In this document: positions 18,689 to 51,775 of the stretch, piece after piece | Position numbering within the stretch: position 1 is the stretch's first letter | Layout: each line of letters starts with the position of its first letter | Notes under the pieces: model-generated | Database searches by the model: none | Told to the model about the DNA's origin: nothing | The model's input: only the letters and a program-made list of their open reading frames with translations | Program-made: the position numbers and the translations under genes | From: Halobacteria archaeon AArc-dxtr1 | Lineage (GTDB): Archaea > Halobacteriota > Halobacteria > Halobacteriales > Natrialbaceae | DNA: 64,000 bases | Reading direction: 5' to 3' | Assembly: GCA_025517425.1 (NCBI GenBank) | Contig: JAOPJY010000001.1 | Location: 792,217-856,216, forward strand

Positions 18689-19516
18689 CTACTCCGTGTC
18701 GTCCAGCTCTGTGGAGGGCCCATCGTCGGTTCCCTGACGGTCAGGGCGTTCCGTCGCCCGCCGGAGGAGGCCGAGGAAGGTGGTGACCTCACGTTCGGTT
18801 AGATCCGCCCGGCCGTAGACCCGCCGGAGCATCCGTACCGTCTTCTCGCGCTTTTCTTCGGGGTGGTTGAGTTCCTCTAGGAGCGCCCCCCACTGGTCGT
18901 AGAGACGCTCTATCATCGGCTCCGGTGCACGCACGCGCTCTCGAGTCTCCGTTGGAAGCTGGATTTCCTCGGGCGCGAGGGTGAGCGTGCGTAGCTCGTA
19001 GAGGGTTACGGTCGCCGCCTGACCCAGGTTCAAGACAGGGTACTCGGCACTCGCTGGGATCGAGCAAATCTCGTCGATTCGAGCGAGCTCCTCGTTGGTG
19101 AGGCCGACGCGCTCGCGCCCGAAGACGATCGCAGTGGGTCCCTCCACACGAGCAAGGCGATCGGCCAGCTCGGCGGGCGTCGCATACGGAAAGCGGACGT
19201 GGCTGCGATCGTCCTCGTTGGTCACCGCGGTACAGCCGACGGTGTGGTAGTTCTCCACCAGCTCGTCGAACGTGATCTCCGTGGCGTTGGGCAGGACGTC
19301 TTTCCGCGCGTGACCGGCGAAGCCGTACGCCTCGCCGTCGGGGTCTAACTCCGGTGGGTCGACTAGCAGCAGTTCGGAGAAGCCGAAGTTCTTCATCGCC
19401 CGGGCGATCGTACCGACGTTTCCTGGCGCCTGGGCGTCGACGACTGCAACAGCCGGCGGCGTTCGACGGGTCGGACAGTCGACCTCCCCCTCGGGACTGG
19501 ACGGTGTCTCAGTCAT
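18689..19516 (-). CDS. trmJ: tRNA 2'-O-methyltransferase of the TrmJ/SPOUT family
   Basis: This 275-residue SPOUT-class enzyme carries the knotted SAM-binding motifs VDAQAPGNVGTIARAMKNFG (N-terminal), AIVFGRERVGLTNEEL and NLGQAATVTLYELR, the last forming the trefoil knot. The C-terminal helical region (about 180-260) is typical of archaeal TrmJ, which 2'-O-methylates C32 of tRNAs. TrmJ-type activity is inferred from family resemblance; another ribose target is possible. The gene is convergent with gatE and its start faces the putative replication origin. Confidence 0.9.
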   Translation of the reverse strand: MTETPSSPEGEVDCPTRRTPPAVAVVDAQAPGNVGTIARAMKNFGFSELLLVDPPELDPDGEAYGFAGHARKDVLPNATEITFDELVENYHTVGCTAVTNEDDRSHVRFPYATPAELADRLARVEGPTAIVFGRERVGLTNEELARIDEICSIPASAEYPVLNLGQAATVTLYELRTLTLAPEEIQLPTETRERVRAPEPMIERLYDQWGALLEELNHPEEKREKTVRMLRRVYGRADLTEREVTTFLGLLRRATERPDRQGTDDGPSTELDDTE

Positions 19517-19762: not shown

Positions 19763-19847
19763 GTTGGTGGTGTTAGTGGTGGGTAGTGGTGGTAGTGGTG
19801 TTAGTGGTGGGTAGTGGTGGTAGTGGTGGTAGTGGTGGTAGTGATGG
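19763..19847 (+). repeat. GTG-rich tandem repeat
   Basis: Irregular short units (GTGGTGGTA, GTGGTGTTA, GTGGTGGGTA) are repeated about nine times, including two copies of a 28-base unit beginning at 19767 and 19795. The top strand contains many GG runs and could adopt non-B structure. It lies at the trmJ side of the candidate origin. Confidence 0.85.
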
Positions 19848-19850
19848 TCG

Positions 19851-19914: not shown

Positions 19915-19939
19915 ACACACCTCCGTCGCGTTTGTAACG
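19915..19939 (-). repeat. ORB-like repeat, copy 1 (minus orientation)
   Basis: Read on the minus strand it shares TTACA, an eight-base core CGCGA.GG and GGTGTGT with the plus copy at 20062-20086 (about 21 of 25 positions). It points away from the spacer, as expected for the left arm of an origin. Confidence 0.8.
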
Positions 19940-19970
19940 TCGGTTAGGTGTGGGGAGGTTCTGCTATGGA

Positions 19971-19995
19971 ACACACCAGTGTCGCGGGTGTAAAA
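19971..19995 (-). repeat. ORB-like repeat, copy 2 (minus orientation)
   Basis: The minus strand reads TTTTACA-CCCGCGA-CACTGGTGTGT, matching the other copies at about 18 of 25 positions, with TTACA, CCGCGA and GGTGTGT retained. It is the inner minus-strand box, 66 bases from the first inverted plus-strand box. Confidence 0.72.
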
Positions 19996-20061
19996 TCCGG
20001 GTATTGAGCGGCACAATCGAAGAAAATCGGCGAATCCGATCACACGCCACCCCTTCGTTCC

Positions 20062-20086
20062 CGTTACATCCGCGAGGGGGGTGTGT
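20062..20086 (+). repeat. ORB-like repeat, copy 3 (plus orientation)
   Basis: CGTTACATCCGCGAGGGGGG followed by TGTGT. The G-run after the CGCGA core resembles the G-string described for halophile origin boxes. It faces copies 1 and 2 as an inverted repeat. Confidence 0.8.
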
Positions 20087-20260
20087 GCGTCGATGTGCAC
20101 CCACTGCTGGAGCCGTACAGGGCCAATTCATCCCACTTTCGCCGGCCTATCGGCTGGTCCTTTGGATTTCGCCGCGAGCCGGTTCCCGTTCGCGGGTCCG
20201 ATTGCGATAGCGAGTTCGGAGCGAGGACCCTACAACAGATTCGTACCATCCCTGTCTTCC

Positions 20261-20285
20261 CGTTACATCCGCGAGGGAGGTGTCG
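20261..20285 (+). repeat. ORB-like repeat, copy 4 (plus orientation)
   Basis: CGTTACATCCGCGAGGGAGG followed by TGTCG, nearly identical to copy 3 over 23 of 25 positions and preceded by the same CC. It lies about 200 bases upstream of the orc1 start. Confidence 0.8.
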
Positions 20286-20392
20286 GTGTCGTCGAGCCTC
20301 GAGTCGAGGGCAGTTAGAAGCGCGATGGCGGCGCCCTAGTGAAATTTGCACTACACCGCCGCCAGACCGTATTAGAGTGGCTGGGACGTACT

Positions 20393-20407
20393 GTTTACAT
20401 CCGCGAT
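20393..20407 (+). repeat. half ORB-like repeat at the orc1 promoter
   Basis: GTTTACATCCGCGAT keeps the left half (TTACATCCGCGA) of the full repeat but lacks the G-run. It sits immediately upstream of the orc1 TATA box (GCTTTATTT, 20419-20427), where Orc1 binding could control its own transcription. Confidence 0.6.
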
Positions 20408-20457
20408 TGATCTCCATAGCTTTATTTCAGTTCAGTTGGAACGGACGCAGTACTGCA

Positions 20458-21687
20458 ATGTCCGTGAACGACGATCGTGATCCCCTCTTTCGGTACGACG
20501 ATCCGGTCTTTGCCGACGAGCGGTTGCTCGAGATCACGCACCTTCCCGGCCCGGACCGGATCGTCGGGCGCGACGAGCAGATGCAACGAGTAGCGGACGC
20601 CCTGAACCCCGCCATCTTCGGGAGCGAGCCAAACCACCTGTTCATCTTCGGCAAGACGGGGACCGGCAAATCACTCATCTCTCGATCGGTCACCCAGCGG
20701 GTGATCTCGGAGGCCAGACGAGACGACATCACGGTGAAGTACGCCTTCATCGACTGTGGCGAACAGAACACCGAGGCGTCGATCGTCAAGACGATCGCAC
20801 AGATCGTCAACGAACCCGAAAAGAGCGGCGTTTCCGTTCCCGACCGCGGTCTCGGCACCGGCGACTACTACAAACGGCTCTGGCAGGCTGTCGATCACTG
20901 CACGGACGTCACTATCGTCATCTTAGACGAGATCGACATGCTAGAGGACGACGAAGTGCTCCGAAAGCTCTCTCGTGCGGGCGAAAACCGACGCATCTCG
21001 GAGTCGAGCATCGGTATCATCGGCATCTCGAACAAGATCGACTTCCCGGACCACCTCTCCGAGCGCGTGAAATCGAGCCTCTCGCGGGACGAACTCGTCT
21101 TCTCGCCGTACGACGCCAACCAGCTCGTCGAGATCTTAGAGAAGCGGCGGGACGCGTTCCACGACGGCGTCCTCGGAGCGGACGTGATCCCCCTCACCGC
21201 AGCACTCGCCGCTCAGGAACACGGCGACGCGCGCAAGGCGATCGACATCCTCCGGAACGCCGGCCGCATCGCGAAGAAGCGAACCGACACCAGCGTCACC
21301 GCCGAACACGTCCGGGACGCCAAAGAGAAGACCGAGGCCGATCGGTTCAACGAGCTGATCGAGGGTTCCCCCCAACAGGCGAAGGCGATCCTCTACGCGC
21401 TGACGCTGCTCACCGAGAACAGCTCCCAGAAGGAGTTTCCGACGAAGATCATCTACGACCAGTACAAGGAGATCGCCCGACAGCTCGACTTCGACGTGCT
21501 CTCCGAACGCCGAGTCCAGGAGATTCTCCAGGAACAGAACTTCCTTAACGTGATCCAGTCCGAACGCGAAGGTCGTGGACGCGGGCGTGGTGCCCACGCC
21601 AAACACCGGTTGCTCGAGAATCCGTCGATCGTCAAGAAGGTCCTGTTGCGGGACTCGCGGCTGGCGGTACTCGACGACGGGAACTAA
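20458..21687 (+). CDS. orc1: Orc1/Cdc6 replication initiator
   Basis: This is a 409-residue AAA+ initiator. Walker A is GKTGTGKS (residues 65-72), Walker B is IILDEIDML near residue 157, and sensor motifs lie in IGISNKIDFPDHL and EHGDARKAIDILRNAG. The C-terminal winged-helix domain (about 310-405) binds origin boxes. It loads the MCM helicase at the origin. The frame is open upstream through the origin region, but only the ATG at 20458 fits: a TATA box lies 31-39 bases before it, and the protein begins MSVNDDRDPLFRYDDPVFAD as family members do. The four ORB-like repeats just upstream are its likely cognate sites. Confidence 0.96.
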   Translation: MSVNDDRDPLFRYDDPVFADERLLEITHLPGPDRIVGRDEQMQRVADALNPAIFGSEPNHLFIFGKTGTGKSLISRSVTQRVISEARRDDITVKYAFIDCGEQNTEASIVKTIAQIVNEPEKSGVSVPDRGLGTGDYYKRLWQAVDHCTDVTIVILDEIDMLEDDEVLRKLSRAGENRRISESSIGIIGISNKIDFPDHLSERVKSSLSRDELVFSPYDANQLVEILEKRRDAFHDGVLGADVIPLTAALAAQEHGDARKAIDILRNAGRIAKKRTDTSVTAEHVRDAKEKTEADRFNELIEGSPQQAKAILYALTLLTENSSQKEFPTKIIYDQYKEIARQLDFDVLSERRVQEILQEQNFLNVIQSEREGRGRGRGAHAKHRLLENPSIVKKVLLRDSRLAVLDDGN

Positions 21688-21822: not shown

Positions 21823-23019
21823 ATGAACAGCGTCGACGCGGCGGGGCTCGGAATCGGTGACGATCACCCGCCCCGGATCATGGGCGTGTTGAACGTCAGC
21901 GAGGAGTCGCCGTACGATCCGAGCGTCTACGACGACCCCGGCGAGGCGGCCCGCTACGTCGACGAGGAACTGATCGGCGAGGGCGCCGATATCGTCGACG
22001 TCGGCCTCGAATCGGCGAACAAGCGCTTCGACGTGCTCTCGGCCGAGGAGGAACTGGAGCGGTTACACGTCGCCGAGGAAACGATCGCGAGCGTCTCCGG
22101 AGATGCCATCTTTTCGATCGAGACGCGCTACCACGAGGTGGCCGAGGCGGCCCTCGACGCGGGATTCGACATGGTCAACGACATCGCGGGCTTCGCCGAT
22201 CCCGAGATGCCGGCCGTCTGTGAGAAGTACGACGTCGCCGTCGCGAAGATGGCGAGCCCACCCGATATCGAGCGCCCCGGCGCCGTCGAAGAGACCGACT
22301 GGGCAACTCGCAAGTCACCCCAGTGGGCCGCCGATGCCAAGTACGTCGACCAGGTCTACGAGGCGTTAAAGCAAAACGGCCTGACCGAGAAGACGATCGT
22401 CGATCCCGCCTTCGGTGGCTGGAGTGAGGCCCAGACGATCGGCCAGGACCGCGAAACGTTCCGTCGGCTCGCGGAGTTTCGTGCGCTGGACCGTCCGATG
22501 CTGATCTCGATCAACCGGAAGAACTTCCTCGGCGAACTGGTCGACCGCGAAACCGAAGCGCGGCTGCCGGCGAGCCTCGCTGCGACGGCGATGGCCGTCG
22601 AACGTGGTGCACACGTGATCCGAACCCACGATGTCGCCGAGACACGGGACGCAGCCCAGATCGGTGCGGCGTTCACCGAGCGAGCCCGCTTTCGGGACGG
22701 CGAGATGATCGTCAGCCGGCTCGATACCGATGGGAGACGAACACTCCGTCGTCACCTCGAAGCGCGTGGGTTCGATTCCGAACGAGGTTCGGAGCAACTC
22801 GGTGCCGTCGTCGAGGTTCGGGGCCTCGGCGAGCGAGCGGAGCGGCTACGAACGGCGGTTGGGTCGACAGCTGCCGAGTTCGTCGCCGTCCCTGGCCCAA
22901 CCGACCGCGTACTGCTCGTCGGATCGGTCGCCGAGCTTGCGTTACTTCCAGAGCGAATTTCTGAGGATAGTGACGATAATTTCGCGATCGGATCTGCGAT
23001 CCAGAACGTCTTGCAGTAA
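21823..23019 (+). CDS. folP: dihydropteroate synthase family protein with C-terminal extension
   Basis: This is a 398-residue protein. Residues about 10-275 form a DHPS-type TIM barrel: MGVLNVSEES, NDIAGFADPEMPAV, VDPAFGGW and SINRKNFLGEL match the pterin-binding motifs in order. The canonical GGESTRPG loop is instead DVGLESANKRFDV, so the p-aminobenzoate side is altered. The last 120 residues (SRLDTDGRRTLRRHLEARGF onward) are an additional domain I do not recognise. It should join a dihydropterin to an arylamine in tetrahydrofolate or methanopterin-type synthesis, consistent with mptE and gch3 downstream. The start is the ATG at 21823, about 25 bases after CCTTTTTG. Confidence 0.85.
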   Translation: MNSVDAAGLGIGDDHPPRIMGVLNVSEESPYDPSVYDDPGEAARYVDEELIGEGADIVDVGLESANKRFDVLSAEEELERLHVAEETIASVSGDAIFSIETRYHEVAEAALDAGFDMVNDIAGFADPEMPAVCEKYDVAVAKMASPPDIERPGAVEETDWATRKSPQWAADAKYVDQVYEALKQNGLTEKTIVDPAFGGWSEAQTIGQDRETFRRLAEFRALDRPMLISINRKNFLGELVDRETEARLPASLAATAMAVERGAHVIRTHDVAETRDAAQIGAAFTERARFRDGEMIVSRLDTDGRRTLRRHLEARGFDSERGSEQLGAVVEVRGLGERAERLRTAVGSTAAEFVAVPGPTDRVLLVGSVAELALLPERISEDSDDNFAIGSAIQNVLQ

Positions 23020-51671: not shown

Positions 51672-51775
51672 AGTCCCGTGGTGTAGTGGCCAATCATATG
51701 GGCCTTTGGACGTACTCGGTCCAGGCCGATTACGGAAGATAGCCCATGACGGCGGTTCGAATCCGCCCGGGACTA
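51672..51775 (+). tRNA. tRNA-Gln (anticodon TTG) with 31-base intron
   Basis: The acceptor stem is AGTCCCG/CGGGACT with discriminator A, and the T arm is GGCGG-TTCGAAT-CCGCC. The anticodon stem is TGGGC/GCCCA with loop CTTTGGA, giving TTG at positions 34-36. The gene is interrupted after position 37. Spliced length is 73 bases. The acceptor, anticodon and T stems are fully paired in the spliced form; the D stem is a three-pair stem with a G-T. Confidence 0.96.
51710..51740 (+). other. tRNA-Gln intron with bulge-helix-bulge splice motif
   Basis: The 31-base intron lies between positions 37 and 38. The splice motif is textbook: central helix CTTT/GAAG, 5' bulge GG^A, 3' bulge AT^A, inner helix CGTA/TACG (51711-51714 with 51731-51734), outer helix GGGC/GCCC. 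The EndA endonuclease would cut within both three-base bulges. Confidence 0.93.

Follow-up and report, generated by a model that had tools for sequence, protein, structure and literature searches.

Replicators linked to an orc/cdc6 gene are of a kind already known in haloarchaea. At oriC1/cdc6A, as described for Haloarcula hispanica (PMC3936714) and as also present in the genome studied here, the region upstream of the cognate orc gene contains a spacer flanked by inverted ORBs with outward-facing G-strings, and on the inner side of these ORBs there is a G-rich inverted repeat (PMC3936714). The oriCa and oriCb families of Wu et al. 2012 (PMC3528665) are likewise linked to orc/cdc6 genes, possess family-specific ORBs with a G-string and occur on both chromosomes and plasmids. 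In Haloferax mediterranei, oriC4-cdc6H consists of inverted ORBs beside an orc gene and shows little or no trace of use in the wild type (PMC4595724), while in Natrinema sp. J7 the region named oriC9, or ARS-5, was assayed on plasmid pFJ5 (PMC5350488).

The locus examined in the current study, which lies in a 64,000-nucleotide stretch of the draft genome of Halobacteria archaeon AArc-dxtr1 (the window), resembles each of these systems. It shares with oriC1 the inverted boxes, the outward G-strings around a spacer, the inner G-rich inverted repeat and the cognate orc gene downstream, yet it differs in its box core (TTACANNCGCGA as against TTCCANNGGAAAC in oriC1), in its Orc protein, which belongs to a different clade and is 43% identical to Cdc6A over 285 matched residues, in not being universal and in a skew polarity that is terminus-like. 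Dormancy was measured for oriC4, which was acquired recently and lies in a variable region (PMC4595724); the present locus is family-wide and has a conserved neighbourhood, and its dormancy is a matter of inference. The J7 oriC9 is orthologous and, at 914 bp, fits the trmJ-orc intergenic region; Ori-Finder 2 assigned it one ORB, whereas in the Natrinema orthologues analysed here all four boxes are complete and a half-box is present at the promoter. Since the survey of Wu et al. covered Haloterrigena, Halopiger and Natrialba (PMC3528665), the origin family of this locus, compared by description, is probably among those reported there. In the literature searched, no description was found of the family-wide geometry, the antipodal position or the promoter half-box.

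The locus is likely, in our view, to be a complete replicator linked to an orc/cdc6 gene and distinct from oriC1; it would constitute a secondary chromosomal origin opposite oriC1 and probably serves as a weak, late or dormant backup. Four ORB-like boxes with the consensus TTACANNCGCGA-N4-GGTGTGT lie upstream of an intact Orc1/Cdc6 gene, and the features of the region are as follows.

18689..19516, minus strand: trmJ/SpoU-family RNA methyltransferase gene, the divergent left neighbour that bounds the intergenic region
19915..19937, minus strand: ORB-like box M1, outer left, TTACAAACGCGACGGAGGTGTGT, 32.0 bits, kept in 49 of 49 orthologues
19947..19958, plus strand: G-rich string GGTGTGGGGAGG, left half of the G-rich inverted repeat, just inside M1
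19971..19993, minus strand: ORB-like box M2, inner left, TTACACCCGCGACACTGGTGTGT, 32.3 bits
19994..20046: spacer of the inverted boxes, mildly AT-enriched, possibly the site of duplex unwinding
20047..20053, minus strand: C-rich string just inside P1, partner in the G-rich inverted repeat
20064..20086, plus strand: ORB-like box P1, inner right, TTACATCCGCGAGGGGGGTGTGT, 39.8 bits
20263..20285, plus strand: ORB-like box P2, distal right, TTACATCCGCGAGGGAGGTGTCG, 37.8 bits
20395..20406, plus strand: promoter half-box P3, a fifth box without G-string, TTACATCCGCGA, candidate autoregulatory site
20420..20428, plus strand: TATA-like element of the orc1 promoter, CTTTATTTC, aligned and conserved among orthologues
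20458..21687, plus strand: orc1/cdc6, 409 aa, AAA+ ATPase with winged helix, putative cognate initiator
21823..23019, plus strand: folP, dihydropteroate-synthase-like, right neighbour

The protein family of Orc1 is settled by its sequence motifs, the Walker A, Walker B, sensor-1 and sensor-2 motifs all being intact, and by its PDB relatives 2v1u and 2qby; it matches TIGR02928 (E 2.8e-122) and also PF22703, PF09079 and AAA domains. Two marks by which Wu et al. 2012 recognised origins are thus present, namely an adjacent orc/cdc6 gene of >300 aa with AAA+ and winged-helix domains, and inverted ORB-like repeats beside it, here two minus-strand and two plus-strand boxes. An earlier note on this DNA had described four boxes, M1 and M2 on the minus strand facing P1 and P2 on the plus strand, upstream of orc1/cdc6 and sharing a common motif, and this description is borne out: all four are present and contain the exact sequence TTACAYCCGCGA, with the TTACA ends directed toward the spacer and the G-rich ends outward. 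The boxes end in GGGGG(T)GTGT, the string being short and degenerate in the inner minus box M2. The G-rich inverted repeat is specific in its placement, as GGGG occurs just inside M1 in 37/49 orthologues versus 6/49 inside M2, and CCCC just inside P1 in 44/49 versus 8/49 inside P2. The note had also placed an unwinding element between the boxes; a spacer is indeed found there, but strong AT-richness is not, given a family mean GC of 0.55, with a dip to about 0.45 in the two 20-nt windows that begin 50 and 40 nt ahead of P1. A tandem GTGGTGGTA repeat of about nine copies is also present at 19767-19848, in the interval from trmJ to the boxes; among 58 upstream regions, that of the window included, only three have a comparable G-rich run, and the repeat is thus not part of the conserved origin. 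Elsewhere in the window, a 104-nt tRNA at 51672-51775 was detected by an Rfam match, with no ARAGORN match, and probably contains an intron.

The box set is both specific to the locus and conserved. Four copies of the exact sequence TTACAYCCGCGA exist in the 2.8-Mb genome, and all of them fall inside the same 425 nt. A weight matrix trained on orthologous upstream regions, of which the window supplied one of 58, scored the boxes at 32-40 bits against 7 for the next best site in the 64-kb window and 6.5 for the best site in 300 shuffled intergenic regions, and gave no other site above 20.3 in about 0.92 Mb of genome scanned. As this matrix is fitted to the family it was trained on, and several of the later genomes are of the same species, a plain pattern search is the cleaner test: of the 125 family genomes, 62 contain the inverted core in exactly one place, while a reversed control pattern gave no occurrence across all 125. 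The box order (minus, minus, plus, plus) was the same in all 49 Natrialbaceae upstream regions analysed; M1 and M2 are separated by 54 nt in 39 of these orthologues and by 56 nt in eight, M2 and P1 by 69-73 nt in 47 and by 63 nt in two. The distance from P1 to P2 varies among relatives from 77 to 602 nt. Box order is thus fixed, and spacing nearly so, in 49/49 orthologues although the flanks diverge. Orthologues of the Orc itself, taken from a scan of species genomes, were recovered in 99/125 Natrialbaceae genomes representing 22/29 genera, and are mostly 93-96% identical between genera, which points to purifying selection. The genome (G000) encodes seven Orc/Cdc6 homologues (L022-L028), and ahead of two of these, L022 (C1:96680) and L026 (C1:1724539), no ORB-like repeats are obvious. 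Around paralogous Orc loci in three relatives no boxes were found at >=14 bits, indicating that box and initiator go together. A phage homologue was sought and none was found.

The locus is not the main origin. In the same genome, oriC1 is located at C1:1698996-1699278, where the exact canonical ORB TTCCAGTGGAAACGAAGGGG lies upstream of cdc6A (C1:1699891-1701699), a gene present in 124/125 family genomes and in 59/59 haloarchaea sampled. At the orc1 locus, neither the C-ORB TTCCANNGGAAAC nor a cdc6A orthologue is present, and identity with oriC1 is ruled out by the different box and by the position of cdc6A and the exact C-ORB 887 kb away. The suggestion that this might be a lineage-specific or secondary origin is upheld in that the box core differs from the canonical one and oriC1 with cdc6A resides elsewhere; the genome-wide ORB search that the earlier note called for located canonical oriC1 with cdc6A and found the exact box sequence TTACAYCCGCGA nowhere outside the locus. 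The orc locus and cdc6A share a contig in 40 chromosomes. Their separation amounts to 0.40-0.50 of that contig's length in 37 of these, with a median of 0.451, and genus medians depart from a uniform distribution (KS p = 2.6e-8), a comparison in which phylogenetic dependence remains. Base 1 of public chromosomes coincides with the orc locus in G036, G048, G081 and G082 (C1) and with cdc6A in others, so that the numbering of Natrialbaceae chromosomes follows two conventions.

Concerning activity, some information can be deduced from published work on Natrinema sp. J7. Both PARS-5 primers have perfect matches at the Natrinema gari orthologue (L035), where one falls within the predicted trmJ gene and the other immediately past orc, and the J7 ARS-5 is thereby identified as the orthologous locus; J7 oriC7/oriC8 (pFJ4) had been a candidate by gene length (gap 1227 nt) and was set aside when primer mapping gave ARS-5. 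Autonomous replication of the orthologous fragment was only marginal, since pFJ5 yielded <10 cfu/µg as compared with about 1000 for pFJ1, pFJ4 and pFJ6 (PMC5350488). In the same assay pFJ2 gave no transformants (PMC5350488), and as its reverse primer maps just downstream of cdc6A, the low pFJ5 count is no proof of inactivity and could reflect incompatibility instead of weakness. A literature search found no marker-frequency data for any Natrialbaceae.

GC skew in haloarchaea is inverted (PMC2841640). In sampled stretches of the AArc-dxtr1 genome, third-codon skew corrected for gene orientation was +0.047 to the left and -0.053 to the right of oriC1, whereas at the orc1 locus it was -0.017 to the left (712-812 kb) and +0.029 to the right (812-952 kb), and it remained positive from 812 kb to oriC1 at 1699 kb. 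The earlier note had looked to a skew inflection here as a sign of an origin: a change near the locus does exist, but its polarity is opposite to the plus-to-minus change at oriC1 and is terminus-like. The changepoint interval is 810-900 kb, so the sign change could be as much as 90 kb away from the locus. This polarity suggests that forks from oriC1 have met near the locus over evolutionary time. A bacterial-style reading, in which the cumulative skew minimum marks the origin and the locus would be the main origin, was rejected in view of the inverted haloarchaeal skew (PMC2841640), the same inverted polarity of oriC1 in 5/6 haloarchaea of other families tested, and the correction for gene orientation. 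Corrected skew gave no replication-associated signal in G022 and Natronorubrum bangense, so that the terminus-polarity argument is one from a single draft genome, whose largest contig is probably shorter than the whole chromosome. The proposal of a chromosomal origin stands as regards an element of origin type, but is so far not supported as regards an important active origin at this site, given the terminus-like skew and the J7 count.

The fifth box, P3, was absent from the box list of the earlier note. It lies 26 nt ahead of the orc1 TATA element and, in most Natrialbaceae, at -63 from the ATG; the distance from P3 to TTTAT is 26 nt in 52/57 sequences and 27 nt in three, and it is constant even where the distance to the start codon differs among aligned relatives. 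P3 is also retained in homologues that are just 65-73% identical, on plasmids of Haladaptatus, Haloferax and Haloprofundus. The simplest reading of this arrangement is that P3 is a site at which Orc1 may autoregulate its own gene; a literature search on archaeal Orc autoregulation through ORBs gave nothing usable. The main initiator gene may possess a similar element, as an ORB-like box (TTCCAGGTGAAATGAGGGGGT, TTCCACCCGAAATAAGGGGGT or similar) is situated roughly 10-35 nt before the cdc6A start codon in all nine loci read (L028, on C1 of the present genome, near 1328-1349; L124, L126, L151-L154, L156 and L158), and is a possible autoregulatory site.

Related loci are found outside the main chromosome. 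On a 417-kb Natronosalvus plasmid the box-bearing orc homologue is the only Orc found, and plasmids of Haladaptatus (389 kb) and Haloferax larsenii (344 kb) carry homologues with the same boxes. A separate 987-kb circle of Natrinema thermotolerans A29 holds the locus together with trmJ (RNA methyltransferase) and folP, and in Natrinema thermotolerans folP again lies downstream of the annotated orthologue, one gene further along; a divergent gene of methyltransferase size and a gene of folP size flank the locus in most relatives too. A natural cis/trans separation is provided by genome G087, where an apparent inversion has placed the core M1-M2-P1 near 1569.7 kb of C1 and orc at 2267.0 kb (L266 and L265), 697 kb apart. 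P2 and the promoter box have stayed with orc, and the separated core still scores 39-40 bits. This suggests that the core has a role independent of the orc promoter, an argument that would be weaker if the rearrangement were recent, as it may be.

Based on these findings we propose that Orc1 most likely binds the four boxes that bear a G-string, and that their divergent arrangement would place it on both sides of the roughly 70-nt spacer. The spacer would then melt to permit MCM loading, aided by the G-rich inverted repeat in the manner of the enhancer in Haloarcula oriC1. The same protein probably binds P3, which lacks a G-string, upstream of the TATA element and would thereby control its own gene. 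The chromosomal copy would be a secondary origin that in ordinary growth is probably weak, late or dormant and is kept in reserve, while related copies of the replicator would serve plasmids.

A replicator is the best reading of the locus on the basis of the comparative data and the plasmid homologues, and we count as evidence for an origin both the full set of origin parts and the plasmid copies with the same boxes. That it is weak or dormant is suggested by the J7 ARS-5 count, the antipodal position in 37/40 chromosomes and the skew polarity opposite to that of oriC1. The same antipodal position would, however, also be favoured by an equal division of the chromosome between two origins, if the locus were a fully active second origin, firing every cycle with oriC1 and selected for a position that balances four replichores; all parts are strongly conserved, and in Haloarcula hispanica and Haloferax two or three origins are indeed active (PMC3936714, PMC4595724). 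We nevertheless regard this as unlikely, since two active origins should agree in skew polarity and the locus and oriC1 are opposite in this genome, and since the orthologous J7 fragment produced <10 cfu/µg.

That the boxes form no origin at all, Orc1 being a transcription factor on its own (and the trmJ) promoter, would account for the fixed 26-nt distance of the half-box from the TATA element in 52/57 sequences and for the weak ARS activity of the orthologue. A pure operator is highly improbable given four more divergent boxes with a constant spacer and a G-rich inverted repeat, the G087 core retained 697 kb from orc, and the 417-kb plasmid for which the box-bearing homologue is the one Orc found. 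It is scarcely credible that the locus is a functionless remnant of an integrated plasmid replicon: related replicators do occur on plasmids of several genera, and the skew bears no sign of firing here, but the orthologues in 99/125 genomes are mostly 93-96% identical with boxes and spacing intact, and the flanking genes of methyltransferase and folP size are common to most relatives. Chance repeats in a GC-rich intergenic region are refuted by conservation and specificity alike, as seen in the shuffles, the genome-wide counts and the geometry of 49/49 orthologues.

Haloarchaea keep many orc/ori pairs, most of them without visible activity, and these may be backup origins, elements of the terminus or regulators. 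With its fixed geometry in dozens of species, its antipodal position, its plasmid relatives and the genetics available in Natrinema J7, the locus offers a clean way to decide among these possibilities, and the promoter half-box represents a simple route of archaeal initiator autoregulation that is open to testing. A more far-reaching and tentative idea, about which we are doubtful, is that the family as a whole maintains a complete second replicator near the terminus, normally silent or late and restrained by its own Orc1 acting at the promoter half-box, and that this replicator finishes or rescues replication or seeds new replicons. If this were true, the locus would be an archaeal counterpart of an origin that is licensed yet dormant, situated where it would be of greatest use.
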